Program-made: the position numbers and the translations under genes
Shown: positions 9,861 to 43,153 of the stretch, piece by piece
Position numbering within the stretch: position 1 is the first letter of the stretch
How the letters are laid out: each line of letters opens with the position of its first letter
NCBI RefSeq assembly: GCF_010668805.1
Contig: NZ_WUFT01000001.1
Location: 558,001-622,000 of the forward strand
DNA: 64,000 nucleotides
Direction of reading: 5' to 3'
Origin: Rhizobium phaseoli
GTDB lineage: Bacteria > Pseudomonadota > Alphaproteobacteria > Rhizobiales > Rhizobiaceae
The notes under the pieces: generated by a model
What the model saw: only the letters and a program-made list of their open reading frames with translations
What the model was told of the DNA's origin: nothing
Databases searched by the model: none

Positions 9861-9897
9861 GCATGACGCCGTCCCGCCGTACCGGGTTGATCCGGTA
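9861..9897 (+). promoter_or_regulatory. Flagellin-type leader element before the che operon
   Basis: GCATGA at 9861-9866, 24 nt, then TCCGG at 9891-9895. TACCGG (9880-9885) and CCGGTA (9892-9897) can form a 6-bp stem with a 6-nt loop. The same arrangement precedes all four flagellin genes. The GGCATGACGCC start is identical to that of flaD. Confidence 0.45.
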
Positions 9898-10064
9898 TCC
9901 ATCTCTTCAGACAGCTCCGAACCTAGCTGATCAGGGGGCTTCGATCCGCCGGTTGTGACCGGTGGTGAGGACCGTCTCCAGACCTGCGATTCACCGGATG
10001 CTGCAAAAGTTTTTGGCCGGGCTTTCGCTCGGAATGTGGTCGGGGACAGGCGTTGAGGCAGGAC

Positions 10065-11693
10065 ATGCCATCAGATCAGGCTCGTGGAGCGCAGGCAGGC
10101 AGCTTGCGCGACCGCCTGCGCTTTGTCGGTCTCGATGCCGACCAGTGCGAGCTGGTGCGCCGCAACCGGCCGGCCCTCGAAGCGCATTTGAAGGCAGGTC
10201 TCAGAGATCTGTTCCACAGGTTCCAGTCATTCCCCGACGCCGCGCGCAATTTCGAGAGCGAGCGCCAGGTCGAGCGCCTGCATGATCTGCAGTCCTCGCA
10301 CTGGGATGTGCTGACCGATGCGCGGTTCGACAGTCTCTATGCCGAGCGCGTCAAGGTTCTCTCCGATACCGAAAGCAAGATCGGCCTCGATCCGCGCTGG
10401 CACGTGGCCGGCCACGGCGTCATGCTCGAGCACGTCGTTTCCGGTCTCGCCGAGCAGATCGCCGGCCGCCCGCTGCTGCCGTCCGCCAAGCGTCGCACCC
10501 GCGAAATCTCCGATCTGATGACAGCGATCATCCGCATCGTCATGGTCGATGTGGAAATCGCCGTCTCGCTCCGCTTCAACGCCCAGCGCGCCGCCGAACA
10601 GCGCGCGCTTGCCGATCAGCGCGCCGATAACGAGGCCGAGATCGTCAGGATCTTCGGCGATGTCATCGAAGGCCTGTCGGCACGCGACCTGACGCAGCGC
10701 GCGCCCGTCGACGGAGCCCATGCCCCGATCGCCGCCGCGCTGAACGGCGCATTGGATGGCCTCCAGGCCGAGTTCACCGCCATCACCGAGCGCACGCTCA
10801 AGGCCGAAGCGGCGACAGGCGCGCTTGCCGGCCTGTCCAGGCAGTTCGCCGGCACGGCTTCGGGCCAGGCCGACCGGCTGCAGCTTTCTGCCGCTGCCCT
10901 TGCCGGTATCGCCGGCAGTGTCCGCGACGGTGCTGCCGACAGCCGCACTGCCGAACAGGCCGCCGCCTCGACGCGCGCCGCCGTCGAACAAAGCGGCGAG
11001 GTCGTCGGCCGCGCGATCAGCGCCATGGCCGACATCGAGCAGTCAGCCGAAAAGATCGGCCAGATCATCGGCGCGATCGATGAGATCGCCTTTCAGACCA
11101 ATCTTCTGGCGCTGAACGCCGGCATCGAGGCCGCTCGCGCCGGCGATTCCGGCCGCGGTTTTGCCGTCGTCGCCCAGGAAGTCCGGGCGCTGGCCCAGCG
11201 CTCGGCCGAAGCCGCCCGCGAGATCAAGACGCTGGTGACGACGACCAAGGCCCAGGTCGACGCCGGCGTGCAGATGGTCGGCCGCACACAGGATTCGATT
11301 GGCAGCATCGTGCGTCAGGTCACCGACATCAATGCCGCCATCGCAGGCATCGCCACCCGAACCGGCGAACATGCCGCAAGCCTCGACAGCGTGACTTCAG
11401 ACATCAAGGGCCTGGGTGGCGAGGTGGCGGGCAGCGCCGGTCTTGCCGAGCGCTCCGCCGAAGGTGCCGACCACCTCCACACCGTCATTCTGGAACTCGG
11501 TCAGACGATTCGCGAATTCCGCATCGCCCGGGAAAACGCCAGTGCCGGGCGCCCGGCGCCGGCTCGTGTGACGCCGCCGCGCGCCATCGAAGCAGCCGCG
11601 CGTCCGGCTGTGACCGAAGACGAATACGAAAATGATGATTTTAGCCTTCCGCAGGCCTTCGCGAGCGTCGGAGGTGGGCGGAATGTTTACTAA
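10065..11693 (+). CDS. icpA: Soluble globin-coupled chemotaxis receptor IcpA
   Basis: A 542-residue cytoplasmic methyl-accepting chemotaxis protein, first gene of the che operon. The ATG at 10065 follows GAGGCAGG; a TTG at 10053 is in frame. Residues 15-165 resemble a protoglobin sensor domain ([17 protein letters not shown] is the recognisable core), and residues 230-500 are the MCP signalling domain with the hairpin tip [19 protein letters not shown]. No membrane helix is present. The heme-binding proximal His expected three residues before IGL is E103 here, so heme binding is doubtful. It would signal to CheA through CheW. Synteny with the Sinorhizobium meliloti che operon supports the name. 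Confidence 0.88.
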
Positions 11694-11756
11694 CCTATCG
11701 GATGATTGCCTCAGCTCGTCTTCTCGGGCCGGCGACAAGGGGACAAGGAAAAGCTG

Positions 11757-12053
11757 ATGGCAGCAAAGAAGAGTGGCAAAACGCTGGATTTGACAGCGGT
11801 GCTCGACCTCAACGAGGCTTCCGCCTTGCGCGATAAACTCCTCTCCCTCAGGGGCAGCGGTCTGTCGATCGACGCCTCAGGCGTCGAACGGATCGGTGCT
11901 CTTTGTGCCCAGGTTCTGATGTCCGCCGAGAAGACCTGGGCGCTGGACAAGCAGCCATTCACCTTCTCCAAGGTGTCCGACGCATTTCAGAAAACCATGC
12001 AGCTGGTTGGTGTCAACTTTGATCACCTGCTTGCCAAGGAGATTCGGCAATGA
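11757..12053 (+). CDS. cheS: CheS, STAS-domain partner of CheA
   Basis: A 98-residue single-domain protein of the STAS fold (SIDASGVERIGALCAQVLMSA is the core, with a Ser of the phosphorylatable type near the strand). The ATG at 11757 follows AAGGAAAAG. In Sinorhizobium meliloti the product of this position, CheS, binds CheA and speeds loss of phosphate from CheY1, which acts as a phosphate sink. The stop overlaps the cheY1 start (ATGA), so the two are translationally coupled. The function is taken from the homologue at the same operon position. Confidence 0.85.
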   Translation: MAAKKSGKTLDLTAVLDLNEASALRDKLLSLRGSGLSIDASGVERIGALCAQVLMSAEKTWALDKQPFTFSKVSDAFQKTMQLVGVNFDHLLAKEIRQ

Positions 12054-12415
12054 AGAAAAAAGTTCTTACCGTGGATGATTCCCGCACCATCCGAAACATG
12101 CTTCTCGTGACGCTGAACAATGCCGGCTTCGAGACGATCCAGGCGGAAGACGGCATCGAGGGTCTCGAAGTTCTCGAAGAGTCCAATCCTGACGTCATCG
12201 TGACTGACATCAACATGCCGCGGCTCGACGGTTTCGGTTTCATCGAAGGTGTCCGCCGCAACGAGAAATATCGGGCGATCCCGATCCTGGTCCTGACCAC
12301 CGAGAGCGACGCGGAAAAGAAGAACCGCGCCCGCCAGGCCGGTGCCACGGGCTGGATCGTCAAGCCTTTCGACCCGGCCAAACTGATCGATGCCATTGAG
12401 CGTGTAACCGCTTAA
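12050..12415 (+). CDS. cheY1: Chemotaxis response regulator CheY1
   Basis: A 121-residue single receiver domain. The acidic pair is D9/D10, the phosphorylation site D53 (VTDINMPRLDG), with T83 and K105 (VKPF) in place. In rhizobia with two CheY proteins this one, next to cheA, serves mainly as a phosphate sink, while CheY2 acts on the motor; that assignment rests on gene order. It overlaps cheS by four bases and precedes cheA by 17 nt. Confidence 0.93.
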   Translation: MKKKVLTVDDSRTIRNMLLVTLNNAGFETIQAEDGIEGLEVLEESNPDVIVTDINMPRLDGFGFIEGVRRNEKYRAIPILVLTTESDAEKKNRARQAGATGWIVKPFDPAKLIDAIERVTA

Positions 12416-12432
12416 ACCCAGGATTTGCACCG

Positions 12433-14727
12433 ATGGATATGAACGAAATCAAAGAGATCTTTTTCCAGGAGTGCGAGGAACAGCTCGCCGAGCTGGAATC
12501 CGGTCTGCTGAAATTGAATGATGGCGATCGCGATCCGGAAACCGTCAATGCGGTGTTCCGTGCCGTGCATTCGATCAAGGGTGGCGCCGGCGCCTTCGGC
12601 CTTGATGATCTGGTCGCCTTCGCCCATGTTTTCGAGACCACTCTCGATTGCGTTCGATCCAACAAGCTTGAGCCGACCCAGGACGTCCTGAAGGTGATGC
12701 TGAAGTCGGCCGACGTGCTCGCCGACCTGACGAATGCTGCGCGCGACGGCGGCAGCGTCGATGAAAGCCGCAGCCGAAGCCTGGTCAAGGAGCTCGAGGC
12801 GCTGGCCAACGGTGAGTTGCCGTCTCCCTCGGCATTGGCCGAGGCGCCGGCCGCAAAGCCCGTAGCCAAGGCCGTTCCGGCCGCTGCGGCGCCGACAGCC
12901 AAGCCCACCGACGAGAGCGGCTTCCAGCCGGTCCCCTTTTCCTTCGACGATTTTGGCGGCGAGGGCGATGCGGGTTCCGACATGCCGGCCTATGAAATCA
13001 CCTTCAAGCCGCGCTACGAACTCTATTCCAAGGGCAATGACGCCACGCTGCTGCTGCGCGATCTCTCGCGCCTCGGCGAAATGACCATCTATTGCAATAC
13101 CGATGACCTGCCGGGCCTCGAGGAACTTGATCCGGAAGGCGCTTATTTCTTCTGGAACGTCACGATCAAGACGGACAAGGGCGAGGACGCCATTCGCACC
13201 GTCTTCGAATTCGCCGAGTGGGATTGCGAATTGTCGGTGAAGCCGGTCGAGGACGCAAGGGCCGACGCGACCAGCAACGACGAACTGCCGATGGTGCCGG
13301 TTCCCTTCGATCTGTCGATCCTGGATGAGAGCGGCGCAACGGAAGAGGTTTCCGCCTCCGCAAGGGCCGAGGAGACGGCCGCAGCCGTTGCCGCCGCCGA
13401 GATCGCCTCCAACGTCACGCAGATGGCCTCAGCCGCCGCCCGTGTCGAGAAGAAGGAATCGGCCGCCGCAGCAGCCGCGGCTGCAAGTGCCGCCGCCCAG
13501 AACAACGCCGCCGCCGGCGCCGGCCAGACGATCCGCGTCGATCTCGACCGTGTCGACCGCCTCATCAACCTCGTCGGCGAACTGGTCATCAACCAGGCGA
13601 TGCTGTCGCAGAGCGTCATCGAGAACGATACGACCGGCACCTCCTCGATCAATATGGGTCTGGAAGAGCTGCAGCAGCTCACCCGTGAGATCCAGGACTC
13701 GGTCATGGCGATCCGCGCCCAGCCGGTGAAGCCGGTGTTCCAGCGCATGTCGCGTATCGTCCGCGAAATCGCCGACATGACCGGCAAATCGATCCGCCTC
13801 ATCACCGAAGGTGAAAATACCGAAGTCGACAAGACTGTCATCGACAAGCTGGCCGAGCCGCTGACCCACATGATCCGCAATGCCGTCGACCACGGCATTG
13901 AAACGCCTGAAAAGCGCGCGGCCGCCGGGAAGAACACCGAGGGCACGGTCCGCCTGACCGCCAAGCATCGTTCGGGACGCATCCTGATCGAGCTTGCCGA
14001 TGACGGCGCCGGCATCAACCGCGAGAAGGTCCGCCAGAAGGCGATCGACAACGACCTCATCCCGGCCGATTCCAACCTGTCTGACGAAGAAATCGACAAC
14101 CTGATCTTCCTGCCGGGTTTCTCGACGGCCGACAAGATCTCCGACATCTCCGGCCGCGGCGTCGGCATGGACGTCGTCAAGCGCTCGATCCAGGCGCTCG
14201 GCGGTCGTATCAACATCACCTCGAAGCCCGGCCACGGCTCGGTCTTCACCATGAGCCTGCCGCTGACGCTCGCCGTCCTCGACGGCATGGTGGTCACCGT
14301 CGCCGGCCAGACCTTGGTCGTGCCGCTGACTGCGATCGTCGAAACCTTGCAGCCGGAAGCGGCCGCGATCCACTCCTTCGGTGCAAACCACCGGCTAATC
14401 TCGATTCGCAACAGCTTCTGCCCGCTGGTCGATGTCGGCCGCATCCTGAACTTCCGTGCGACCCAGGCCAACCCGGTCGAGGGCGTGGCGCTTCTAGTGG
14501 AGTCCGAAGGCGGCGGCCAGCGCGCCCTGATGGTCGACGCCATCCAGGGTCAGCGCCAGGTGGTCATCAAGAGCCTGGAAGCCAACTACACCCATGTGCC
14601 GGGCATTGCCGCCGCGACCATTCTCGGCGACGGGCGCGTCGCTCTCATCCTCGATGTCGACGCGGTTGTCGGCGCCTCGCGCGGCCAGTCGCTCAAAGCG
14701 GAAATGTCGTTAGCAGCGGTAGGATAA
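12433..14727 (+). CDS. cheA: Chemotaxis sensor histidine kinase CheA
   Basis: A 764-residue kinase that receives signals from receptors through CheW and phosphorylates CheY1, CheY2 and CheB. Domains in order: P1 histidine phosphotransfer (H46 in [14 protein letters not shown]), an Ala/Pro linker, a P2-like docking domain near 190-280, a second Ala-rich linker near 310-355, the P3 dimerisation helices ([15 protein letters not shown]), the P4 ATPase with N-box [11 protein letters not shown] near 480, DDGAGI near 522 and GRGVGM near 576, and the P5 CheW-like domain from about 620. The linkers are long and Ala-rich, with alanine runs near 350. It lies 17 nt after cheY1 and 4 nt before cheW. Confidence 0.97.
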
Positions 14728-14731
14728 GGCA

Positions 14732-15199
14732 ATGTCGTACGCCGTGAAAAATCTGAACGAGGGGGACCGCGAGCTGATCGCGTTCCGCATCGGGGATCAG
14801 GAATTTTGCGTGAACATCATGTCGGTTCGTGAGATCCGGGGCTGGACCCCGGCGACCGCGATGCCGCACTCGCCTGCCTATATGCTTGGAGTTATCAACC
14901 TGCGCGGCGCGGTGCTGCCGATCATCGACCTTGCCGCCCGGCTTGGCATGAAGCCGGCCGATCCGACCGCCCGTCATGTGATCATCGTTGCCCAGGTGCG
15001 GCGCAAGGTCGTCGGCCTGCTGGTCGATGCCGTGTCCGATATCCTGACGGTGACCGACGAAACCGTCCAGCCGACGCCAGAGATCTCCTCCGAACTCGAG
15101 CGTCAATTTGCCCGCGGCATTCTTGCCATCGACAAGCGCATGATCTGCCTGATCGAACTCGAAGCCCTCTTTCCCGAGACCGAAAGCGAAGCCGCATGA
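14732..15199 (+). CDS. cheW: Chemotaxis coupling protein CheW
   Basis: A 155-residue CheW-fold adaptor that joins receptors to CheA. The typical strands [18 protein letters not shown] and [18 protein letters not shown] are clear, as is the end segment [15 protein letters not shown]. It starts 4 nt after cheA and its TGA overlaps the cheR ATG (ATGA), so it is coupled on both sides. Confidence 0.96.
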
Positions 15200-16104
15200 A
15201 CCCAATGGGCGCAAAAGATCAGAGGCAGGGATCCGACGAGGTCCTGGCGAGTGGAGAATATCCGCTAACGCGCCGCGACCTCACGGAGATCGCCGCGATG
15301 ATCTATTCGGATGCGGGCATCTTCCTCAACGAGACGAAGGCGTCGCTCGTCTATTCGCGCCTGTCGAAACATATCCGCAATCTCGGTCTGTCCGGCTTCC
15401 GGGAATATTGTGACCTCGTCGCCTCGCCGGCGGGTGCTGCGCCGCGCCGCGAGATGCTCTCGCATCTGACCACCAATTTCACCCGCTTCTTCCGCGAAAA
15501 CCATCATTTCGACCACCTGCGCGACCATGTCCTACCGGAACTTCTGCAGCGGGCGAGATCGGGCGGCAGGGTGCGCATCTGGTCGGCCGCTTCCTCCGAC
15601 GGGCAGGAACCCTATTCGATTGCGCTGACGGTGCTGTCGCTGATGCCGAATGTCGCCGATTACGATTTCAAGATCCTGGCAACCGACATCGACCCGAAGA
15701 TCCTGGCGATTGCCCGGGCCGGCGCCTATGACGAAAGCGCGCTCGAAACCGTTTCGCCCGCCATGCGCAAGCAATGGTTCAGCGAAGTCGAGGTCCAGGG
15801 CCGCAGGAAGTTCCAGGTCGACGACCGGGTCAAGCGGCTGATCACTTACAACGAGCTGAACCTGATGGCGCAATGGCCGTTCAAGGGCAAGTTCGACGTC
15901 ATCTTCTGCCGCAACGTCGTCATCTATTTCGACGAGCCGACGCAGATGAAGATCTGGCAGCGTTTCGCCGGCCTGCTGCCGGAGGGCGGACATCTTTATA
16001 TCGGCCATTCCGAGCGTGTGTCGGGCGAGGCAAAACACGTCTTCGACAATATCGGCATTACGACCTATCGCTATACCGCCAAAGGTCTCGGGAGGAAGGC
16101 ATGA
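15196..16104 (+). CDS. cheR: Chemotaxis protein methyltransferase CheR
   Basis: A 302-residue enzyme that methylates receptor glutamates with S-adenosylmethionine. An N-terminal helical domain (about 20-90, with [15 protein letters not shown] at the junction) precedes the methyltransferase domain: [14 protein letters not shown] is the SAM-binding loop, [14 protein letters not shown] the acidic strand that contacts the ribose, and [14 protein letters not shown] the catalytic-side strand. It overlaps cheW and cheB by four bases each. There is no TPR extension, the usual short form. Confidence 0.96.
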
Positions 16105-17144
16105 GCGCGCCGGCAAGGGTTCTCGTTGTTGACGACTCCCCGACGATGCGGGGTCTGATCACCGCCGTCTTGAGTTCTGACCCCGAGGTCAACGTCATCG
16201 GCCAGGCCGGCGACGCGCTGGAAGCGCGCGAGGCGATCAAGCGGCTGAACCCCGACGTCGTGACGCTCGACATCGAGATGCCGAATATGAACGGTCTCGA
16301 TTTCCTCGAAAAGATCATGACGCTGCGTCCGATGCCTGTCATCATGGTCTCGACAATGACCCATCGCGGCGCCGAGGCGACGCTTGCAGCACTTGAGATC
16401 GGGGCGTTCGATTGCGTCGGCAAGCCGGGGCCGGGCGAACTCAGGCCCTTTGGCGACCTCGCCGAGAAGGTCAAGGCTGCCGCGCGCACGCAGCGCCAGT
16501 TCTCCCATCCGGTTGCTCCCGCAGCACCTCCGCCCTCGGTTGCCGATTTCCGCGTCGGCCGCAAGATCGTCGCGATCGGCTCGTCCACAGGCGGCGTCGA
16601 GGCGCTGATCGCCGTGCTGCAGAAGTTTCCGGCCAATTGTCCGCCGACGGTTATCACCCAGCATATGCCGCCGACCTTTACAAAGAGCTTCGCCGAACGG
16701 CTGAACCGCCTCTGTGCGCCGGTGGTGCAGGAAGCAACCGACGGTGCCCGCCTCGAAATCGGCAAGATCTATCTGGCGCCCGGCGGCGAGCGCCATCTCC
16801 AGGTCAGCAGTGCCTCGGCGCCGTGCTGCCGTCTCGTCGACCGGGCGCCGGTCAACGGTCACCGGCCATCGGTCGACGTGCTGTTCGATTCGGTCGCGGA
16901 GTTGGCGGGCCGTAACGCCGTTGGCGTGATTTTGACCGGAATGGGCCGCGATGGTGCCGCCGGATTGTTGAAAATGCGCCACGCCGGCGCCAGAACACTC
17001 GGCCAGAACGAAAAAACCTGTGTCGTTTACGGAATGCCAAGGGTTGCCCATGAACTTGGCGCCGTTGAGCAGCAGTTGCCCCTGTCTGCCATCGGGGAAG
17101 AAATATTGAAAATGACAGCCGCCCGAAAGGAAGGGACCGAATAA
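16101..17144 (+). CDS. cheB: Chemotaxis protein-glutamate methylesterase CheB
   Basis: A 347-residue enzyme that removes methyl groups from receptors when phosphorylated by CheA, the adaptation feedback. The start at 16101 ([14 protein letters not shown]) follows GGGAGGAAG and overlaps the cheR stop (ATGA). Residues 1-125 are the receiver with D57 (VTLDIEMP). After a linker, the methylesterase domain shows the catalytic Ser in GSSTGG near 159-164, His in [12 protein letters not shown] near 187 and Asp in GMGRDGAAG near 282. All key residues are present. Confidence 0.96.
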
Positions 17145-17145
17145 A

Positions 17146-17535
17146 ATGTCGATCGCGGAGAAAATCAAAGTTCTGATCGTCGACGATCAGGTAACGAGCC
17201 GGTTGCTGCTCAGCGACGCGCTGACCCAGCTCGGTTTCAAGCAGATCACGTCCGCAGGCGACGGCGAGCAGGGCATGAAGATCATGGCCGAGCAGCCGCA
17301 CCACCTGGTGATCTCGGACTTCAACATGCCGAAGATGGATGGCATCGGCTTCCTTCAGGCCGTGCGCACCAACCCGAACACCAAGAAGGCGGCCTTCATC
17401 ATCCTCACCGCCCAGGGCGACCGCGCACTGGTGCAGAAGGCAGCCCAGCTCGGCGCCAACAACGTGCTCGCCAAGCCGTTCACGATCGAGAAGATGAAAG
17501 CGGCTATCGAAGCCGTGTTTGGAGCCCTGAAATGA
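17146..17535 (+). CDS. cheY2: Chemotaxis response regulator CheY2
   Basis: A 129-residue receiver: acidic pair D13/D14, phosphorylation site D58 ([12 protein letters not shown]), T88 and K110 (LAKPF). In Sinorhizobium meliloti the CheY at this position is the one that slows the motor by binding FliM; assignment here is by position. It follows cheB by one base and its stop overlaps cheD (ATGA). Confidence 0.93.
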
Positions 17536-18086
17536 TCACTGAGGGGGCAGCCCGCCGCGTGCACATCATTCAGGGCGAGTACAAGGTTCTGAACGATCCG
17601 AATGCGGTCCTCTCGACCATTCTCGGTTCCTGCGTGGCTGCGTGCCTTCGAGACCCTGTCGCCGGCATCGGCGGCATGAACCACTTCTTGCTGCCCGGTT
17701 CGGCGACGTCGCCGACATCAGGCGGCGATGCCACCCGTTACGGCGTGCATCTGATGGAACTGCTGATCAACGGTCTCCTGAAGCAGGGCGCCCGGCGCGA
17801 CAGGCTGGAGGCCAAGATCTTCGGCGGCGCCAAGACGATCTCGACATTCTCCAATGTCGGTGAGCAGAACGCGGCCTTCGCCATGCAGTTCCTGAGGGAT
17901 GAAGGCATTCCGGTGGTCGGTTCCTCCACAGGCGGAGACCATGGACGCAAGCTTGAATTTTGGCCCGTCTCCGGTCGTGCCCGGCAGTACCCCCTGACCG
18001 GCGCCGAAACGCAGAGAACCGTCGCTCTCGAGCAGCGTCCCGCCGCTCCGCCGAAGCCCGTCGAAACCAGTATCGAATTTTTTTGA
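17532..18086 (+). CDS. cheD: Chemoreceptor glutamine deamidase CheD
   Basis: A 184-residue deamidase that converts receptor Gln to Glu. The catalytic Cys lies in [12 protein letters not shown] and the His in [11 protein letters not shown], followed by the [14 protein letters not shown] helix, as in the family. The C-terminal 30 residues (after [11 protein letters not shown]) are a Pro-rich tail ending VETSIEFF. It overlaps cheY2 by four bases and precedes cheT by 16 nt. Confidence 0.94.
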
Positions 18087-18102
18087 TGGCGAGGATTTTC
18101 AT

Positions 18103-18492: not shown

Positions 18493-18585
18493 GGCGCATC
18501 GCGTCAAGCCGGATTCATGCGGCGCTTCAAGTCTTGATTTGGGCACGTCGTTTCCCAAAACCGCTGCGACGTTTTGGGAGGCATT
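18493..18585 (-). repeat. RIME-like mosaic element
   Basis: Read on the minus strand this is a full rhizobial mosaic: a CCCAAAAC/GTTTTGGG palindrome (within 18554-18579), then an ACGACGTGCCCAAATCAAG-type segment and a GAAGCGCCGCATGAATCC-type segment. It sits between cheT and fliF. Transcription of fliF must read through it or start after it. Confidence 0.65.
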
Positions 18586-18703
18586 CGTTCGGGCTTTTTT
18601 GCTCCCGCCCGCGCTTCACGAAACGCTCGCACAAGTTTCGCCGACTATTCGTCAGATGAGGCAATAAGCCTGCTTTGTCTTTGACGAATCGTGCGAGAAC
18701 AGA

Positions 18704-33045: not shown

Positions 33046-33061
33046 AGGGAAGGGCCGAAAC

Positions 33062-35201: not shown

Positions 35202-35914
35202 ATATGCGTCTCCCGGCCGCGATTGCCGCCCTCGCACTCCTTGCGGGTTGCCAGTCTCCGACGGCAGTCAGCGAAATCGGCCGTGCGCCTGCCATGAGCC
35301 CGATCGGCAGCGGCCTTGCCTACGGCCAGACGCCGCAGATGGCGCTTTATCCGAAGCAGCCGCGCGCTGTGGCGCAGGGTTATTCGCTGTGGAGCGATTC
35401 GCAGGCGGCGCTCTTCAAGGATGCGCGCGCGCTCAACGTCGGCGACATCCTGACCGTCGACATTCAGATCAACGACAAGGGCTCTTTCGACAACGAGACC
35501 AACCGCAGCCGCAAGAATTCGAGCGGCATGAACTGGGACGTCAACGCCCAGATCTTCGGCTGGACGCCTGAGTCCAAGACCGACCTGACCTATGGCTCCG
35601 ACACCAGCACCGACGGCAAGGGCAAGATCGAGCGCACCGACAAGCTGACGCTTCTGGTCGCCGCCGTCGTCACCGGCATTCTCGAAAACGGCAACCTCGT
35701 GATATCGGGCTCGCAGGAAGTCCGATTGAACCAGGAACTGCGTATCCTGAACGTCGCCGGTATCGTTCGTCCGCAGGACGTCAATGCCGAAAACCAGATC
35801 TCCTACGACAAGATCGCCGAAGCCCGCATCTCCTACGGTGGCCGCGGCCGTCTGATGGAAGTGCAGCAGCCTCCGCGCGGCCAGCAGGCCGTCGATCTTT
35901 TCTCGCCGCTTTGA
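35198..35914 (+). CDS. flgH: Flagellar L-ring lipoprotein FlgH
   Basis: A 238-residue outer-membrane ring subunit. A lipoprotein signal ends in LLAGC with the lipid-carrying Cys at residue 18. The family's ADALNVGDILTV-type segment (ALNVGDILTVDIQINDKG) and the C-terminal RGRLMEVQQPPRGQQAVDLF are clear. It overlaps motE by four bases and precedes fliL by 12 nt. Confidence 0.96.
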   Translation: MNMRLPAAIAALALLAGCQSPTAVSEIGRAPAMSPIGSGLAYGQTPQMALYPKQPRAVAQGYSLWSDSQAALFKDARALNVGDILTVDIQINDKGSFDNETNRSRKNSSGMNWDVNAQIFGWTPESKTDLTYGSDTSTDGKGKIERTDKLTLLVAAVVTGILENGNLVISGSQEVRLNQELRILNVAGIVRPQDVNAENQISYDKIAEARISYGGRGRLMEVQQPPRGQQAVDLFSPL

Positions 35915-35926
35915 GGCTGAACGACG

Positions 35927-36433
35927 ATGGCAGAGCCAGACGCAAGCGCAGATCAATCAAAGAAGAAATCCGGCGCGCTGATGACGATCATCGGCGTTGC
36001 TGTCCTGACGCTGCTCGGCGCCGTCGGCGGCTGGGCGGTCGGCACGATCGTCGCGCCCAACATCAAGGGCGCCAAGGAGGCCGAGCAGGCCAAGGACGCC
36101 GAAGCTAAGAAAAAGGGCGAGGAAGGCCTGGCCCACATCTCGACGGAGGCCAACAACGTCGTCCAGCTCGAGCCGATCACCTCCAATCTGGCTTACCCCT
36201 CCGAAAACTGGGTCCGACTCGAGGTCGCGCTGCTCTTCAACGGGCCGCCGGATGTCAAGGTTTCCGAGGATATTCATCAGGATATCCTCGCATATATCAG
36301 GACCGTTTCCCTGCAGCAGATCGAGGGGCCGCGGGGCTTTCAATATCTCAAGGATGACATACAGGAACGTGTTGACCTTCGCTCGCAAGGGCGCGTATCG
36401 AAGGTCATGTTCAGGACCTTTGTCATCGAATGA
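35927..36433 (+). CDS. fliL: Flagellar basal body-associated protein FliL
   Basis: A 168-residue single-pass inner-membrane protein that sits around the stators. The helix is at 17-40 (ALMTIIGVAVLTLLGAVGGW), after a short charged cytoplasmic start. A Lys/Glu/Ala-rich linker follows, then a periplasmic domain ending VDLRSQGRVSKVMFRTFVIE. Its stop overlaps fliP (ATGA). Confidence 0.92.
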   Translation: MAEPDASADQSKKKSGALMTIIGVAVLTLLGAVGGWAVGTIVAPNIKGAKEAEQAKDAEAKKKGEEGLAHISTEANNVVQLEPITSNLAYPSENWVRLEVALLFNGPPDVKVSEDIHQDILAYIRTVSLQQIEGPRGFQYLKDDIQERVDLRSQGRVSKVMFRTFVIE

Positions 36434-37167
36434 TTCGTCTCATAGTTTTCCTTGCCGCCATGATAGCGGTACCGGAACTGGCGGTGGCACAGCAGCTGCC
36501 GACTAACCTGTTGAACGTGCCGGTCGATGGCTCGGTCGCCGCCTGGATCATCCGCACCTTCGGCCTGCTGACCATTCTTTCGGTCGCGCCGGGCATCCTG
36601 ATCATGGTGACGAGCTTCCCGCGCTTCATCATCGCCTTCTCGATCCTGCGCTCGGGCATGGGGCTCTCCTCGACCCCCTCCAACATGATCCTTCTGTCGC
36701 TGTCGCTGTTCATGACCTTCTACGTCATGTCGCCGACCTTCGATCAGGCCTGGCAGAACGGCGTGCAGCCGCTGCTTGCCAATCAGATCAATGAGACCGA
36801 GGCGGTCCAGCGGATCGCCGAACCGTTCCGCACCTTCATGTCGGCCAATACCCGCGAAAAGGATCTGGCGCTCTTCGTCGATCTGGCGCGTGAGCGCGGA
36901 CAGAATATTCAGACAACCGACCCGATCGACTACCGCGTTCTGATCCCGGCCTTCATGATTTCCGAGATTCGCCGCGGCTTCGAGATCGGCTTCCTCGTCG
37001 TCCTGCCGTTCCTCGTCATCGACCTGATCGTCGCCACCATCACCATGGCGATGGGCATGATGATGCTGCCGCCGACCTCGATCTCGCTGCCGTTCAAAAT
37101 TCTCTTCTTCGTGCTGATCGACGGCTGGAACCTGCTTGTCGGCAGCCTGGTGCGCTCATTCAACTGA
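36430..37167 (+). CDS. fliP: Flagellar export-gate protein FliP
   Basis: A 245-residue component of the FliPQR export gate. It has a signal peptide (residues 1-22) and the family signature FPRFIIAFSILRSGMGLSST. Four hydrophobic segments follow. It ends the flgB operon before a two-way terminator. fliQ and fliR lie apart at 55832 and 58272, and no fliO is seen in the window. Confidence 0.97.
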   Translation: MIRLIVFLAAMIAVPELAVAQQLPTNLLNVPVDGSVAAWIIRTFGLLTILSVAPGILIMVTSFPRFIIAFSILRSGMGLSSTPSNMILLSLSLFMTFYVMSPTFDQAWQNGVQPLLANQINETEAVQRIAEPFRTFMSANTREKDLALFVDLARERGQNIQTTDPIDYRVLIPAFMISEIRRGFEIGFLVVLPFLVIDLIVATITMAMGMMMLPPTSISLPFKILFFVLIDGWNLLVGSLVRSFN

Positions 37168-37202
37168 GCGGCTGCTGCCCCTGCCTTTTCCCAAAACGTG
37201 AA

Positions 37203-37232
37203 AACCCGCCGGATCGCTCCGGCGGGGTTTTT
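37203..37232. terminator. Bidirectional terminator between fliP and the GT41 gene
   Basis: AACCCGCCGGA, TCGC loop and TCCGGCGGGGTTTTT form a strong stem with a T-tail on the plus strand and an A-run before it that works as a T-tail on the minus strand. It lies between two convergent genes. Confidence 0.88.
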
Positions 37233-37249
37233 CATGGCAGTTATGAGCC

Positions 37250-39166
37250 TCACTCCGCCGCGAACGGCGCGGTGCGCGGCGGCAGCGCCGCAATGTCCAT
37301 GTGGTCGGGTGCGAGACCCTGCTTGGCGCGCGCGGCCATGATTTCATAGGCCTGCTCCAGATGGTCGCAGAACCGTTCGGCATCGAAGAGCGGCGCGATA
37401 TAGCGCTTCTCCTTGAGATGTGTCTTGTATTCGGCGATCCGCCCGGGATTCTCGGCCAGTTCGACGGCGATATCCTCATAGTCCTGCAGGTCGCTTGCGA
37501 CGAGGTCGGGTAGATCGATGGCCCGCAGCAGGCTCTCGCTGACGCGTGAGGCGAAGTTGGTGCCCTTGACGGTCAGGACCGGCAGGCCGCCCCAGAGCTG
37601 CTCCGAGGTGGTCGTGTGGCCGTTGACGGGGAAGGTGTCGATGCCGAGGTCGGCCGCCTGCTGACGGTCGATGTGCTGTTCGTAGGGAGCGCGCGGACAG
37701 AAGATGATCCGCTTGGGCGAAATGCCCGCCGCCTGGAACTGCTTCAAGAGGTTTGCCTGGTTGCGCGGCGTGTTCGCCATCAGCCAGAGCACGCTGTTCG
37801 GCGCGCGCTTGAGGATCCGGCACCAGCTGTCGATTACCTCAGGCGTAATCTTGCGGTTGCCGTTGAAGGAGGCGAAGATGAAGGCATCTTCCGGCAGGCC
37901 GAGCTGCTCACGGGTGACGGCGCGCGGCTTCGGACGATGCATCGGATCGTTTGGCTGGTAGCTTTCCGGCAGCCGGCAGAATTTCTCGTGATAGAAAGGT
38001 TTTGCCACCTCGGGCAGCACGGAATGGTCGCCGATCACATAGTCCAGGTCGATGTTGACGGTGCTGCCGGGAAAGCCGAGCCAGCCGACATGCACCGGTG
38101 CGAGCGGCATGTTGAAGGCCGCCGCGCGGCTGCCTGATGTATGACCCTTCAGGTCGACCATGATGTCGATATTGTGCTCGCGCACCGCCTCCAGCATCGC
38201 CGGGTCGGAGAAGCCGTGAACGTCGACGATCCGGCCCCAGCGGCTACGATCGGTATCGTTATGCTTCAGGAATTCCGGGCCTGTATGGCAGAAGAGCGTC
38301 ACCTCGAACCGCTCCCTGTCATGCAGTTCGAGAATGCGTTGCAGCAGCTTCATCGTCGCATGGCGATCCCAGAAGTCCGACGACATGTAGCCGATGCGGA
38401 TCTTGTCCGACCAGATGTGCGGCTGGTTGCGGCGGAAGTTCACCCGTTCCTGGTTGAGGGGCGTGGTGCCGATCGTCGCATAGCGGTTGAAGTCCTCGTT
38501 GCCGCACCAGTGCAGGTGATAAAACGGGTTGTCCCTGCGTAGGATCTCGATATCACCCTTTGCAAGGGCCGCGTCGATCACTGCCTGATGCTTGGCTGCT
38601 TCTTCGAATTCGTTGAATTCGCGGGCAAAAACGAGGTGGAGAAAGCGGAAGGCGTGATTGCCTGGAAAGCGCTTGAAGAGATTGCGCGCCAGCTTCTGGT
38701 TGGTTGCGTCGTTGAGATCGTCGCTGAGCAGCAGGCCCGCCAGGCGCATGTGATCGGGATTCATGCTTTCCGACAGCACGGTCTTGAACGGACGGATGAT
38801 ATCGCGCTGCTGGCGCTTCAGATAGATCGCGGTGATGATGAAGGCGAGTTCCGCATCTTCCTGCGCCTTGGCGAGGTTTCGCATGGCGATCAGCAGCGCG
38901 TCGTCCTCGTTGCCGGTCTCATAGTGCAGCTTGGCAGCCTGTTTCTGATATTCGTAGGCGTTCGGTCCTTCGCAGTTGCCAGCCAGACCATAGGCTTTCG
39001 CGGCGTCGGCCTTGAAGCCGAGCTGCACGAGGTTCTTGGCTAGCAGCGCATAGGTCTTGGCGTCCTGCTGGATATCCATCAGCTGGTTGAGCGTTGCCAG
39101 GGACTGTGTGTAGCGGCCCAGCTGGTAATCCTTGGATGCCGCAGAGAACGAAATTTTGCTGTTCAA
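37250..39166 (-). CDS. OGT-like (GT41) glycosyltransferase with TPR-like helices
   Basis: A 638-residue protein. Residues 1-210 are helical repeats of TPR type (YTQSLATLNQLMDIQQDAKTY, KAYGLAGNCEGPNAYEYQKQ). The rest matches the catalytic half of O-GlcNAc transferases (SPINDLY family): GYMSSDFWDRHATM with H269 at the place of the OGT catalytic His, HTSGSRAAAF, VHVGWLGFPGST, FNGNRKITPEV with K439 at the place of the UDP-binding Lys, and HTTTSEQLWGGLPVLTVKG. It would transfer a sugar, probably GlcNAc-like, to Ser/Thr. It sits between fliP and flaA on the opposite strand, so flagellins are the obvious substrate. That is inference. Confidence 0.85.
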   Translation of the reverse strand: MNSKISFSAASKDYQLGRYTQSLATLNQLMDIQQDAKTYALLAKNLVQLGFKADAAKAYGLAGNCEGPNAYEYQKQAAKLHYETGNEDDALLIAMRNLAKAQEDAELAFIITAIYLKRQQRDIIRPFKTVLSESMNPDHMRLAGLLLSDDLNDATNQKLARNLFKRFPGNHAFRFLHLVFAREFNEFEEAAKHQAVIDAALAKGDIEILRRDNPFYHLHWCGNEDFNRYATIGTTPLNQERVNFRRNQPHIWSDKIRIGYMSSDFWDRHATMKLLQRILELHDRERFEVTLFCHTGPEFLKHNDTDRSRWGRIVDVHGFSDPAMLEAVREHNIDIMVDLKGHTSGSRAAAFNMPLAPVHVGWLGFPGSTVNIDLDYVIGDHSVLPEVAKPFYHEKFCRLPESYQPNDPMHRPKPRAVTREQLGLPEDAFIFASFNGNRKITPEVIDSWCRILKRAPNSVLWLMANTPRNQANLLKQFQAAGISPKRIIFCPRAPYEQHIDRQQAADLGIDTFPVNGHTTTSEQLWGGLPVLTVKGTNFASRVSESLLRAIDLPDLVASDLQDYEDIAVELAENPGRIAEYKTHLKEKRYIAPLFDAERFCDHLEQAYEIMAARAKQGLAPDHMDIAALPPRTAPFAAE

Positions 39167-39518
39167 AACCCAACTCCGTGAAGGAAATGTTTTGGCATGG
39201 CTGTCGATCGCCCGGCGCGCGCACGGACAGTCCTCCCCGGAAACGGGTGGATCGGTCTGATGGTGCTATCCCGGCGCCTGCCACATTGCCATGCGAAGCT
39301 TGCTTGAAACCGGTGCGCCTCATGAAACGCTTCATTCCCTGAGAGAAAACGGTTTCTTTCCCTGTATGTTAGCATGCGAAGAAATAGATTCAGCCGGCAT
39401 TAACTATGCGATGTAAGGAGCCGGCACGGACCCTCTGTTTTTAAGAAGTTGGCAAGCATTGGCTGCGAGATTGCCCTGGACATGACGGGTTTGGGCCAAA
39501 CAAATAAAGGCGCCGAGT
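39167..39518 (+). other. Upstream region of flaA and the GT41 gene
   Basis: About 350 bases between the divergent GT41 gene and the flaA leader. I see no gene. The half near flaA is A/T-richer. No CGCAAG-type box with the N9 arrangement and no TTAA-N7-TTAA box is present, unlike flaB and flaC. The promoters of both neighbours should lie here. Confidence 0.5.
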
Positions 39519-39598
39519 AGCATGAAGCTGGTCCGTCATCGCCGGTACTTAGTCCGGTATGTCCTCCTTTTTGTATCTAGTTTCCAGGGGACAGATTT
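39519..39598 (+). promoter_or_regulatory. flaA leader element
   Basis: GCATGA at 39520-39525, 27 nt, then TCCGG at 39553-39557, with CCGG (39542-39545) and CCGG (39554-39557) able to pair, then TATGTCCTCC and the start codon. The order and spacing repeat before flaB, flaC, flaD and the che operon. Confidence 0.55.
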
Positions 39599-40504
39599 AT
39601 GACTAGCATTAACACGAACACTTCCGCACAGGCCGCTCTTCAGACGCTGCGCAGCGTCAACCAGGGTCTCCAGTCAACCCAGGCTCATGTTTCGTCCGGC
39701 TATCGCGTCGGCAAGGCATCCGACAACGCGGCTTACTGGTCGATCGCAACGACCATGCGCTCGGACAACAAGGCACTTTCCGCCGTCTCCGACGCTCTCG
39801 GCATGGGTGCTGCGAAGGTCGACACCGCTTACACCGCCATGGACAGCGCCATCGACGTCGTCGGCGACATTAAGGCCAAGCTCGTTGCCGCCACTGAAAA
39901 CGGCGTCGACAAGGCCAAGGTCCAGGAAGAAATCGGCCAGCTGCAGCAGCAGCTGCTCAGCATCGCTCAGTCGGCTTCCTTCAACGGCGAAAACTGGGTG
40001 GCCGGCGCTTCCGGCACCAAGAGCGTTGTCTCCTCCTTCGTCCGCGATGGCTCGAACGCCGTTTCGGTCACCACGACCGACTATGCTCTCGACGACAGCT
40101 CTGCGGGCAACGTTCTGTTCGGCATGAGCGGCGGCTCGGTCGACACCGCTACGGGTATCCTCGGCACGTCGAATGGTTCAAACGCTTCTATCTACGCGAT
40201 GGACATCACAAGCTTCACTTCCGGCCAGATCCAGACGGCTCTGACCAGCGTCGAATCGGCTCTGAAGTCCATGACCAGCGCCGGTGCTGCTCTCGGCTCG
40301 CTTTCCAAGCGCATCGACAACCAGGACACCTTCGTCAACGCCCTCAGCGACTCGATCGACTCCGGTATCGGCCGTCTCGTCGATGCCAACATGGAAGAGG
40401 AATCCTCCAAGCTCAGCGCCTTGCAGACCCAGCAGCAGCTGGCGATCCAGTCGCTGTCGATCGCGAATTCCTCTTCGCAGAACATCCTGTCGCTGTTCCG
40501 CTAA
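39599..40504 (+). CDS. flaA: Flagellin FlaA
   Basis: A 301-residue short flagellin with conserved ends: N-terminal coil (SAQAALQTLRSVNQGLQSTQ) and C-terminal coil (QLAIQSLSIANSSSQNILSL), and a small variable middle rich in Ser/Thr/Gly. It is the first of four tandem flagellin genes and is nearly identical to flaB over long stretches of the first 130 codons. It has its own leader and terminator. Rhizobial filaments mix several flagellins, with FlaA usually the main one; here that is inference. Confidence 0.96.
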   Translation: MTSINTNTSAQAALQTLRSVNQGLQSTQAHVSSGYRVGKASDNAAYWSIATTMRSDNKALSAVSDALGMGAAKVDTAYTAMDSAIDVVGDIKAKLVAATENGVDKAKVQEEIGQLQQQLLSIAQSASFNGENWVAGASGTKSVVSSFVRDGSNAVSVTTTDYALDDSSAGNVLFGMSGGSVDTATGILGTSNGSNASIYAMDITSFTSGQIQTALTSVESALKSMTSAGAALGSLSKRIDNQDTFVNALSDSIDSGIGRLVDANMEEESSKLSALQTQQQLAIQSLSIANSSSQNILSLFR

Positions 40505-40529
40505 GACCGGTCGGCACAAGGCTTCCAAG

Positions 40530-40568
40530 TTTCGCGGCCGGGTCATCCCCGGCCGCGAAATGTTTTAA
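40530..40568 (+). terminator. flaA terminator
   Basis: TTTCGCGGCCGG (40530-40541) pairs perfectly with CCGGCCGCGAAA (40549-40560), followed by TGTTTTAAC. It ends the flaA transcript. Confidence 0.85.
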
Positions 40569-40579
40569 CATAAGGTTAA
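40565..40579 (+). promoter_or_regulatory. CtrA-like box upstream of flaB
   Basis: TTAA, seven bases, TTAA, the full CtrA recognition pattern of alphaproteobacteria, directly after the flaA terminator stem and about 208 nt before flaB. A TTAACCAT half site lies at about 40640. Confidence 0.45.
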
Positions 40580-40706
40580 TAAAAACTCTTCTAAGTGTCA
40601 GATATTTTTAAGTAATTTCCAATTTGGATTTAGCTTTCCTTAACCATCTTGGTGTTTTCTAGGCCCATCGAAACGGCGAGTTAACCTTAACAAAAAATGG
40701 TTAGCA

Positions 40707-40787
40707 GGCATGATGCTGATCGCTGTGGGCCGGCCGAAAATCCGGAATGTCCCTTCTTAAAATCTGCCAACAAGGGGCAAGCAAACT
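40707..40787 (+). promoter_or_regulatory. flaB leader element
   Basis: GCATGA at 40708-40713, 27 nt, TCCGG at 40741-40745, with CCGG at 40730-40733 and 40742-40745 able to pair. Then AATGTCCCTT and AAGGGGCAAGC before the start. The last part is nearly identical to that of flaC. Confidence 0.6.
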
Positions 40788-41696
40788 ATGACGAGCATCA
40801 ACACCAATAATGCTGCAATGGCAGCCCTCCAGACTCTCCGTGGCATCAACCAGGGTCTCCAGGAAACCCAGGCTCACGTTTCGTCCGGCTATCGCGTCGG
40901 CAAGGCATCCGACAACGCGGCTTACTGGTCGATCGCAACGACTATGCGTTCGGATAACAAGGCACTTTCTGCCGTTTCCGACGCTCTCGGCCTCGGCGCC
41001 GCCAAGGTCGACACCGCTTACTCCGCCATGGACAGCGCCATTGACGTCGTCGGCGACATCAAGGCCAAGCTGGTTGCCGCCACTGAAAACGGTGTCGACA
41101 AGGCCAAGGTCCAGGAAGAAGTCAGCCAGCTGCAGCAGCAGCTGCTCAGCATTGCTCAGTCGGCTTCCTTCTCCGGTGAAAACTGGGTGGCCGGCGCTGA
41201 CGGCACCAAGAACGTCGTTGCCTCCTTCGTCCGCGACGGCTCCAACGCCGTGTCGGTCGTGATGACCGACTACGTTCTCGACGACAGCTCTGCGGGCAAC
41301 GTTCTGTTTGGCATGAGCGGCGGGGCGGTCGATACCGCCACGGGTATTCTCGGCACCTCGAATGGTTCGAACGCCTCTATCTACGCGATGGACATCACCA
41401 ACTTCACCCTCGGTGACATCCAGACGGCTCTGACCAGCGTCGAATCAGCTCTGAAGGCCATGACCAGCGCCGGCGCTGCTCTCGGCTCGATCTCTAAGCG
41501 CATCGAACTGCAGGAAAACTTCGTGTCCGCACTCAGCGACTCGATCGACTCCGGTGTCGGCCGTCTCGTCGACGCCGACATGGAGGAAGAATCTTCCAAG
41601 CTCAGCGCCTTGCAGACCCAGCAGCAGCTGGCCGTCCAGTCTCTGTCGATTGCGAACTCCTCTTCGCAGACCATCCTCACGCTGTTCCGCGGCTAA
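40788..41696 (+). CDS. flaB: Flagellin FlaB
   Basis: A 302-residue flagellin, close paralogue of FlaA and FlaC. The N-terminal coil (NNAAMAALQTLRGINQGLQE) and C-terminal coil (QLAVQSLSIANSSSQTILTL) are conserved, and the middle differs at scattered positions. Near-identical nucleotide blocks shared with flaA (GGCTATCGCGTCGGCAAGGC and following) suggest recent duplication or gene conversion. It has its own leader, CtrA-like site and terminator. Confidence 0.96.
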   Translation: MTSINTNNAAMAALQTLRGINQGLQETQAHVSSGYRVGKASDNAAYWSIATTMRSDNKALSAVSDALGLGAAKVDTAYSAMDSAIDVVGDIKAKLVAATENGVDKAKVQEEVSQLQQQLLSIAQSASFSGENWVAGADGTKNVVASFVRDGSNAVSVVMTDYVLDDSSAGNVLFGMSGGAVDTATGILGTSNGSNASIYAMDITNFTLGDIQTALTSVESALKAMTSAGAALGSISKRIELQENFVSALSDSIDSGVGRLVDADMEEESSKLSALQTQQQLAVQSLSIANSSSQTILTLFRG

Positions 41697-41748
41697 TAAC
41701 CGCAGAAAACATCGGCCCGCCGGTCTCCGGCGGGCATCCAGCAACAAG

Positions 41749-41777
41749 CCGCGCTTCTATGGAGCGCGGTTTTTTTA
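41749..41777 (+). terminator. flaB terminator
   Basis: CCGCGCT and AGCGCGG form a stem across a TCTATGG loop and are followed by TTTTTTT. A second, upstream hairpin (CCCGCCGG/CCGGCGGG) near 41715-41735 adds to it. Confidence 0.88.
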
Positions 41778-41784
41778 ATGTCCG

Positions 41785-41800
41785 TTAACGATCGATTAAC
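41785..41800 (+). promoter_or_regulatory. CtrA-like box upstream of flaC
   Basis: TTAA, seven bases (CGATCGA), TTAACC, a perfect TTAA-N7-TTAA site 143 nt before flaC and 8 nt after the flaB terminator. Confidence 0.5.
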
Positions 41801-41862
41801 CATAATGCTGTCTTCTCAGGTCAACGAGACGGTGGGTTAACCAAATCTAAGAATCGGTTAAC

Positions 41863-41942
41863 AGGCATGAGGCTGGTCCCCGTTCCCGGTAACGTTCCGG
41901 AATGTCCCTTTTTTCCATCTGCCGACAAGGGGCAATCATTTC
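41863..41942 (+). promoter_or_regulatory. flaC leader element
   Basis: GCATGA at 41865-41870, 25 nt, TCCGG at 41896-41900, with CCGG at 41886-41889 and 41897-41900 able to pair, then AATGTCCCTTTTTT and AAGGGGCAATC before the start codon. Confidence 0.6.
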
Positions 41943-42854
41943 ATGACCAGCATTTTGACCAACGTCGCGGCCATGGCCGCGCTTCAGACACTCCGCGGAA
42001 TCAATGACGGCCTCGAGGCTACGCAGAACCGCGTATCGTCGGGCTACCGTGTCGAAAAAGCGTCCGACAACGCCGCTTATTGGTCGATCGCAACGACCAT
42101 GCGTTCCGACAACAAGGCGCTCTCCGCCGTCTCCGACGCTCTCGGTCTCGGCGCCGCCAAGGTCGACACCGCGTACTCCGCCATGAGCAGTGCTATCGAC
42201 ATCATCAGCGAAATCAAGGCGAAGATCGTTGCCGCTACCGAAAAGGGCGTCGACAAGGCCAAGGTCCAGGAAGAAATCGGCCAGTTGCAGCAGCAGCTGC
42301 TCAGCATTGGGCAATCGGCTTCCTTCTCCGGGGAAAACTGGGTTGCCGGCGCCGACGGCACCAAGAGCGTCGTTTCCACTTTCGTACGCGACGGCAGCGG
42401 CAATGTCTCGGTCAAGACGACGGACTACGTCCTCGACACGAGCTCTCAGGGCAACGTTCTCTTCGGCATGACCTCGACCGGTACGATCGAGACGACCTCC
42501 GGGATTATCGGCACATCATACGGCACAATCGGTTCGATCTACTCGATGGACATCACCACCTTCGGCTCGGTTGAGATCTCCATGGCGCTGACGTCGATCG
42601 AGGCCGGCCTGGACTCGATGACCAAGGCTGCATCGCAGCTCGGCTCGATTTCCACGCGCATCGAACTGCAGGAAAATTTCGTCAGCTCCCTCAGTGATTC
42701 GATTGACTCGGGCGTCGGCCGCCTCGTTGACGCCAATATGGAAGAGGAATCGAGTAAGTTGACGGCGCTTCAGACACAGCAGCAACTGGCCATTCAGTCG
42801 CTGTCGATCGCCAACTCCAGCGCGCAGAACATCCTCACGCTATTCCGCAGCTAA
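41943..42854 (+). CDS. flaC: Flagellin FlaC
   Basis: A 303-residue flagellin with the same conserved ends (VAAMAALQTLRGINDGLEAT; QLAIQSLSIANSSAQNILTL). The central part (about 140-210) is more divergent and Thr/Ser-rich (SSQGNVLFGMTSTGTIETTS), a stretch that could carry O-glycans. It has its own leader, CtrA-like box and terminator, so the four flagellins can be set at different levels. Confidence 0.95.
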   Translation: MTSILTNVAAMAALQTLRGINDGLEATQNRVSSGYRVEKASDNAAYWSIATTMRSDNKALSAVSDALGLGAAKVDTAYSAMSSAIDIISEIKAKIVAATEKGVDKAKVQEEIGQLQQQLLSIGQSASFSGENWVAGADGTKSVVSTFVRDGSGNVSVKTTDYVLDTSSQGNVLFGMTSTGTIETTSGIIGTSYGTIGSIYSMDITTFGSVEISMALTSIEAGLDSMTKAASQLGSISTRIELQENFVSSLSDSIDSGVGRLVDANMEEESSKLTALQTQQQLAIQSLSIANSSAQNILTLFRS

Positions 42855-42918
42855 GCCAGGCGCTGAAGCTGGACCGAATCTTGCGCCATCGTTCGGCAGC
42901 AAGCAAAAAGCCTCCCGG

Positions 42919-42950
42919 ACCGCGCCCGAAACGGCGCGGTTCTTTCTTTT
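42919..42950 (+). terminator. flaC terminator
   Basis: ACCGCGCC (42919-42926) pairs with GGCGCGGT (42933-42940) and is followed by TCTTTCTTTT. Confidence 0.8.
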
Positions 42951-43084
42951 ATATCAACAGCTTGCCTGCTATCGTGATCAGTGCGGCGAGTTCGGCGCCG
43001 CGCTCTTGCCGAACGGGTTGATATCGAGTTAACCTCGCTTTGAGTTGATTTGCTTTGCGACACGCCGGTAGAAACGCTGCCGGA

Positions 43085-43153
43085 GGCATGACGCCATTTT
43101 AGTCGCCGCCGGCAATCCGGCCTGCCCTTTTACCTTACTCCGAGAGCCTGTCG
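43085..43153 (+). promoter_or_regulatory. flaD leader element
   Basis: GCATGA at 43086-43091, 24 nt, TCCGG at 43116-43120. GCCGG (43108-43112) and CCGGC (43117-43121) pair around a CAAT loop. The first 11 bases, GGCATGACGCC, equal those of the che leader. Confidence 0.55.

Follow-up and report, generated by a model that had tools for sequence, protein, structure and literature searches.

Why do four flagellin genes and a chemotaxis (che) operon of Rhizobium phaseoli carry the same short sequence ahead of them? In the 64,000-nt stretch of contig NZ_WUFT01000001.1 analyzed here (positions 558,001 to 622,000, hereafter the window), GCATGA followed by TCCGG precedes flaA, flaB, flaC, flaD and the che operon with spacings of 27, 27, 25, 24 and 24 nt, exactly as a sequence-only reading of this DNA had reported. 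On balance we favor the view that the five sites are copies of one conserved cis-regulatory RNA leader, of which the motif first seen is a fragment. That reading had described a linear motif with one hairpin; the hairpin is real, but it is only a piece of a leader with five helices, P0 to P4.

The paired motif is highly specific to these places. The window holds six GCATGA-N24-27-TCCGG matches against 0.88 expected, a number reached in none of 100 shuffles, and the sixth match, at 42466, lies within the flaC coding sequence. GCATGA alone is not enriched (62 against 54.35 expected, with 14 of 100 shuffles equal or higher). A stricter pattern, which demands a GC behind the loop and CCGG twice, has seven matches in the 6.6-Mb genome, five of which are these leaders, and its reversed control has none. 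Model R1 was built from flagellin leaders only, its training rows including the four flagellin sites of the window and excluding the che site; in the R. phaseoli genome all five sites score E <= 1e-6, and the next-best match (E 0.054) is spanned by open frames. The claim that the motif stands before all four flagellin genes is true of the array in the window, but there is a further flagellin-like match in the same genome (G000 contig C11:159296-159808), and on that contig R1 gives no match among the 150 of 6589 first-look candidates that were scored.

For comparison we assembled the upstream regions of 111 flagellin genes from the window and from 40 stretches in 38 family members, out of the 49 other flagellin-bearing genomes of the family. 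GCATGA is exact in 95 of the 111 regions; with one mismatch it is found in 106, which is weaker evidence because near matches are frequent by chance. It is accompanied by two CCGG copies in 83 regions, the first CCGG lying 21-23 nt downstream in 75 of these 83 and the two copies 4-14 nt apart. When leaders were anchored on AUGA or AUCA (n = 85, four of which were later judged mis-anchored and removed), a 3-bp stem with a five-base loop (GGC-AUGAN-GCC) became visible, which we call P2. Its outer pair is kept in 74 of the 85 leaders against 59.7 in shuffles (maximum 68), as GC, AU, CG, UA or GU, and the pair one step outside the stem does not form. Since the outer pair is kept in such varied forms, GCATGA is part of a conserved structure but not an independent motif: it supplies the left side of the stem and the loop of a hairpin.

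P3 corresponds to the proposed pairing of an upstream CCGG with the CCGG of the motif. The stem itself is supported, but CCGG is its own complement and two copies will always mimic a stem, so the case for P3 rests on its closing pair and the surrounding helices and not on CCGG. That closing pair remains intact in 45 of 70 leaders, where shuffling gives 28.2 (0 of 5000 shuffles as high), and occurs as AU, GC, CG, UA and GU, and the model trained on flagellin leaders alone finds the che site; both results bear out a selected hairpin common to flagellin and che leaders. The CCGG core is nearly invariant in rows selected for it (1 of 280 cells broken) and is uninformative alone. Thirty leaders without the CCGG pair were examined singly; several have another stem at this place, and most of these do not exceed shuffles and do not constitute proof. 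In one genome (L107), five flagellin leaders keep P2 and UGUCCC with other sequences replacing CCGG/CCGG, and two of the five have a 7-bp stem at that position.

Evidence for a folded RNA also comes from two helices farther upstream. P1, a hairpin upstream of P2 that had been missed, differs in sequence from gene to gene with the pairing kept (arms GUUAACC/GGUUAAC, CCGGUAG/CUGCCGG and CUUCGACC/GGUCGAAG, for example). P0 pairs the stretch preceding P1 with the spacer that separates P2 from P3 (AUGACGG/CCGUCAU in flaA) and encloses P1 and P2, which gives a three-way junction. Both were assessed by exchanging 5' parts between genomes as a null. In the family, P1 has at least six contiguous pairs in 64 of 81 leaders against 20.3 after swapping (maximum 31 in 300 rounds), and P0 reaches a mean score of 17.53 against 13.72 (maximum 14.56 in 200 rounds). 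The order set consists of 25 leaders from other families (30 loci found with model R2, minus five of the own family, with near-identical leaders retained); here 13 leaders have six or more P1 pairs against 4.5 (maximum 10), and the P0 score is 17.92 against 15.12 (maximum 17.08). With at least five P1 pairs the order set stays within the swap range (16 against 9.8, maximum 17), and P0 helices of at least six positions with one mismatch allowed number 22 against 21.5. A third set of at least 119 stretches from named records was collected with a leader pattern that holds neither P0 nor P1 and with earlier leaders removed. Its 99 non-redundant leaders have P1 in 73 cases against 26.4 (maximum 39) and a P0 score of 17.71 against 14.40 (maximum 15.17), each over 200 rounds. 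The covariation check proposed for rhizobial flagellin leaders is therefore positive for P0 and P1, beyond swaps in three leader sets, and the flagellin leaders show the base-pair covariation expected of a structured cis-regulatory RNA. Compared across genomes in this way, they almost certainly encode a folded RNA structure. The same covariation makes it unlikely that the hairpin lies outside the flagellin transcript, which is less clear for che.

Alignments of the leaders were also examined as a whole. A1 has 70 rows chosen for the CCGG anchor, A2 has 51 rows chosen for the CCGG anchor and P4, and A5 comprises 14 of the 25 order leaders, chosen for an alignable P1. RNAalifold recovers all five helices on A5, with nine pairs showing changes on both sides. 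Cells changed on both sides number 24 against 6.0 shuffled in A1, 18 against 5.6 in A2 and 31 against 10.7 in A5, in each case with 0 of 500 shuffles as high.

These results bear directly on whether GCATGA and CCGG are promoter or operator elements in DNA, such as a site for a flagellar sigma factor or for Rem. That the first CCGG follows GCATGA at an almost constant distance and that the sites precede late flagellar genes would fit such elements, but P1 and P0 arms that change with their pairing kept are not expected of protein sites on DNA, the P3 loops range from 4 to 14 nt, and a search of the own genome for the sigma-28 factor FliA (TIGR02479) gave five matches with none over the model cut-off. 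We consider this explanation very improbable, and the linear promoter reading was dropped because P2, P1 and P0 are pairing regions. Two further pairings were rejected. In folds beginning at P2, pairing of P2 with the flagellin gene start is no better in own combinations (mean -9.85) than in those swapped between genomes (mean -9.89), and a pseudoknot of the AUGA loop with the spacer was considered by eye only and receives no support from AUCAG loops.

The P1 arms of flaB (40680-40705) and flaC (41836-41862), GTTAACC/GGTTAAC, resemble half sites of CtrA. A start-site study of Sinorhizobium meliloti places CtrA motifs upstream of flaA, flaC and flaD together with a TTTGTTAACCAT motif (PMC3616915). 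Since GTTAACC is also a P1 arm in flaB and flaC, some of the published CtrA calls at flagellin genes could in part be RNA stem arms.

The last helix, P4, involves the ribosome binding site. UGUCCC directly 3' of P3 and GGGACA or GGGGCA before the start codon form its two arms, and in flaA, flaB and flaC of the window the helix pairs with the Shine-Dalgarno sequence; it is not seen in flaD of the window or in the che leader. When no structure is supplied, RNAalifold still arrives at P2, P3 and P4 for 51 family leaders. Variation in P4 is mostly from U-A to U-G, so its support comes from the presence of both arms: of 146 named-record leaders that were selected by the left arm, 140 also carry the right arm GGGRC downstream, whereas shuffling leaves it in 1 of 146. 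We consider it likely that P4 keeps the flagellin start masked from ribosomes.

All leader parts in the window are on the forward strand. In flaA, P0 (39482-39539) pairs ATGACGG (39482-39488) with CCGTCAT (39533-39539) around P1 and P2. The P1 region (39489-39518) holds a weak stem with G-U pairs (GTTTGG/CCGAGT) or an alternative pairing, followed by P2 (39519-39529, AGC-AUGAA-GCU, which contains GCATGA), P3 (39541-39557, GCCGG/CCGG(U)) and P4 (39560-39593, GUCC/GGGGAC over the Shine-Dalgarno), with the start codon at 39599. The flaB leader has P0 at 40673-40726 (ACGGCGA/UCGCUGU), P1 at 40680-40705 (GUUAACC/GGUUAGC), P2 at 40707-40717 (GGC-AUGAU-GCU), P3 at 40730-40745 (CCGG/CCGG) and P4 at 40748-40779 (UGUCCCUU/AAGGGGCA over the Shine-Dalgarno; start codon 40788). 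In flaC, P0 (41828-41885) pairs GACGGUGGG with CCCCGUUC with one bulge, and P1 (41836-41862, GUUAACC/GGUUAAC), P2 (41864-41874, GGC-AUGAG-GCU), P3 (41886-41900, CCGG/CCGG) and P4 (41903-41934, again UGUCCCUU/AAGGGGCA over the Shine-Dalgarno) precede the start codon at 41943. The flaD leader consists of P0 (43057-43106, GCGAC/GUCGC, in the minimum-energy fold and absent from the centroid), P1 (43065-43083, CCGGUAG/CUGCCGG), P2 (43085-43095, GGC-AUGAC-GCC) and P3 (43108-43121, GCCGG/CCGGC), with the start codon at 43154. In their minimum-energy folds, flaB, flaC and five leaders of the order set, the latter picked among the 25 for clear stems, have P0 around P1 and P2, then P3 and P4, one of the five (L179) showing P3 in another register. 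The flaA minimum-energy fold contains P0 to P3, and in a longer flaA fold the Shine-Dalgarno pairs with CCCUGGA upstream of P0, replacing P4. For the flaD leader and for che leaders (window, L070, L072 and L073), the minimum-energy folds show P1, P2, P3 and a P0, which is short in those of the window and of L072. Part of this layout is missing from the centroid structures of flaD and of the che leader in the window.

The leader also occurs outside flagellin genes. Before the che operon, it comprises an imperfect P0 (9826-9880, ACGUCGG/CCGCCGU, in place of which the fold pairs a nearby GGC/GCC), P1 (9835-9856, UGGGAA/UUCCCA), P2 (9860-9870, GGC-AUGAC-GCC, an R1 match that is in the minimum-energy fold and not in the centroid) and P3 (9880-9897, UACCGG/CCGGUA). 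The first gene after it (10068-11693, forward strand) encodes a protoglobin methyl-accepting chemotaxis protein (MCP), with Pfam Protoglobin and MCPsignal on the open reading frame at 10053-11693, and is presumably IcpA-like. R1 finds the leader at the IcpA-like gene in all 12 of loci L068-L079, the first two being from the own genome and from one of the genus, and at E < 1e-4 in 14 of the 22 IcpA-like loci supplied to it out of 30. The comparison shows that che leaders share the predicted P2 and P3 with the flagellin leaders. UGGGA..UCCCA is a frequent form of P1 in che leaders, and the swap test has little power as a result. We also fetched 18 weaker R2 matches from the order and scanned eight with Pfam: four lie before an MCP gene and one each before a protoglobin-MCP, an EAL-GGDEF, a ribosomal protein L11 and a flagellin gene. 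The match before L11 is probably due to chance. For the four MCP leaders the P1 test had no power. The remaining ten precede frames of 295-349 aa with flagellin-like starts by eye. The EAL-GGDEF case (L230, R2 E 0.0034) belongs to a genome of the family, and the family pattern list supplied locus L236, with a protoglobin-MCP, and locus L240, with a flagellin. Retention of P2 and P3 without P4 in che and flaD is what would be expected if the upstream helices were a 5' stabilizer against message decay and P4 an independent translation element. We regard that division as rather improbable, since the P2 loop and the P3/P4 joint seem, in our judgement, more constant than a plain stabilizer would require.

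The flagellin leader is found across the order. Under strict filters with 18 candidates scored per genome, so that counts are lower bounds, R2 has matches in at least 56 of 249 order genomes, and all 30 fetched R2 loci adjoin a flagellin start. Among the named records, 140 of 149 pattern matches adjoin a flagellin start (a first run on 80 of the 119 loci, with 99/104 and 82 leaders, some in earlier sets, was repeated on all 119). Of the other nine, seven are within 120 nt of the DNA end, and two (L316 and L323) have no recognized flagellin downstream. Named carriers include Bradyrhizobium, Ensifer, Agrobacterium, Mesorhizobium, Hyphomicrobium, Methylocystis, Microvirga and Xanthobacter.

What might read the leader is suggested by the same gene cluster, which encodes flaF (54506-54853, PF07309) and flbT (54850-55299, PF07378), both on the forward strand. 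According to a review, FlbT is proposed to bind flagellin 5' untranslated regions (UTRs) by a mechanism listed as 'Unresolved', promotes flagellin mRNA decay in Caulobacter and is a proposed activator in Brucella, and its table, as we read it, gives no FlbT recognition sequence (PMC4347634). A second review has flbT translationally inducing the lateral flagellins of Bradyrhizobium diazoefficiens (PMC8429497), and a record named for this species (L282) carries three leaders in tandem. In Agrobacterium fabrum, both flbT and flaF were hit when mutants were screened for a strong loss of motility (PMC9812332). flbT is present in 55 of the 56 leader genomes, the exception being a genome that is 86% complete, and in 175 of the 249 order genomes. 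Twelve leader genomes have two flbT genes; where both places are listed (G184, G291, G382, G383 and G385), one copy is 12-14 kb away from a leader and the second copy is not close to one, and one place each is listed for the remaining seven. In G184 and G382, the second flbT is within about 22 kb of a match to the RNA family RF01736. Given this co-occurrence and the published action of FlbT on flagellin mRNA in other species, FlbT may be the reader of the leader, a candidacy that we place slightly short of an even chance. A CsrA-like nature of FlbT was rejected: an hhalign comparison with one CsrA sequence was not significant, and a Pfam scan of 21 FlbT proteins found only FlbT in all of them, CsrA not being among the 19 families listed. 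The first 52 FlbT residues, modeled at a mean predicted local distance difference test score of 76, gave no fold match at E <= 0.001. The FlbT model has five short strands followed by helices; those at the C terminus are similar to FliS and to many other helical bundles (Z 8-9), a likeness too common to interpret.

The same RNA structure might instead be read by another protein, a small RNA or a small molecule, as in a riboswitch for cyclic di-GMP, for example. A three-way junction with a near-constant AUGAN loop would suit a ligand site, leader matches also stand before chemoreceptor genes and one EAL-GGDEF gene, and flbT is much more widespread than the detected leader. There are, however, few invariant unpaired positions beyond the P2 loop, and Rfam 15 at gathering scores, riboswitches included, has no match in the window or in the flagellin regions of seven relatives. 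We think another reader unlikely, though less so than a plain stabilizer.

We read the leader as a new cis-regulatory RNA family that would gate flagellin translation. In the flagellin leaders, the comparison shows P0 enclosing P1 and P2, followed by P3 and, in most of them, by P4, which holds the Shine-Dalgarno in its 3' arm and would close the start site to ribosomes. A trans-acting factor, most likely FlbT, may read the parts that stay constant (P2 including its AUGAN loop, P3, and the joint between P3 and P4) and so decide whether P4 opens, which would confine flagellin production to the proper stage of flagellar assembly. Control of the che operon would act on the message in some way other than masking of the start site. 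Taken together, a conserved leader, masking by P4 and FlbT as the likeliest reader form a moderately probable explanation.

Several observations weigh against it. Among 14 che leaders, neither P1 (4 against 2.6) nor P0 (14.23 against 13.89) is significant. Pairs changed on both sides are less decisive than changed cells, with 45, 35 and 13 of 500 shuffles as high in A1, A2 and A5, and the number of pair types in A5 does not exceed shuffles (166 of 500). The CCGG core barely varies and rows were selected by it, and P4 varies mainly on one side only. The absence of P4 from flaD and che means that start masking cannot be the whole function; these genes would be affected by another route, perhaps message stability. 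Folding energies of the window leaders are unremarkable (z -0.70, -1.05 and +0.74), and the case therefore rests on comparison. Of the 175 flbT genomes, 120 have no detected leader, so FlbT cannot need the leader in general, and the co-occurrence of flbT and leader fits joint inheritance of one flagellar system equally well.

A defined RNA with known helices offers a concrete FlbT target and permits stem-swap mutants, and it predicts which other genes (che and some chemoreceptors) share flagellin control. More tentatively still than the candidacy of FlbT itself, an order-wide RNA family read by FlbT might tie flagellins, chemoreceptors and che into one post-transcriptional regulon in the Hyphomicrobiales.

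The leader is also a candidate new Rfam family. A permissive Rfam scan of 39300-43300 returned four weak matches (E 2.3-5.8) and no flagellar RNA, and we found no account of this leader in openly licensed PubMed Central literature. The closest known RNA in setting is flg-Rhizobiales (RF01736), likewise from Rhizobiales and associated with flagellar genes (Weinberg 2010, PMC2864571) and having three stem-loops (PMC3765529). Identity with it was rejected: the own genome has five weak RF01736 matches, none at the leaders, the best scoring 25.1 bits against a gathering score of 55. Unlike the leader, the 20 RF01736 matches fetched from the order (seven over the cut-off) lack any FlaA-D-like gene in the 3.1 kb of each locus. 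Four of five displayed loci (L198, L202, L205 and L209) begin, in reading direction, with TTGGCACG..., which looks like a sigma-54 promoter. The gene that follows starts MEN or MQN and is FlgF-like by eye and not a flagellin. Flagellin 5' UTRs under FlbT control have been described for Caulobacter (Anderson and Gober 2000) and for Brucella fliC (Ferooz 2011), as cited in PMC4347634, PMC8781033 and PMC9812332. When 385 genomes of the class were searched for the leader with R2, under strict filters with 11 candidates scored per genome so that divergent versions may escape, matches came from the own genome, one order genome and a single weak case outside the order (E 0.0017). In their organization, the systems are alike, each combining a flagellin leader, a flaF-flbT cluster and post-transcriptional control.

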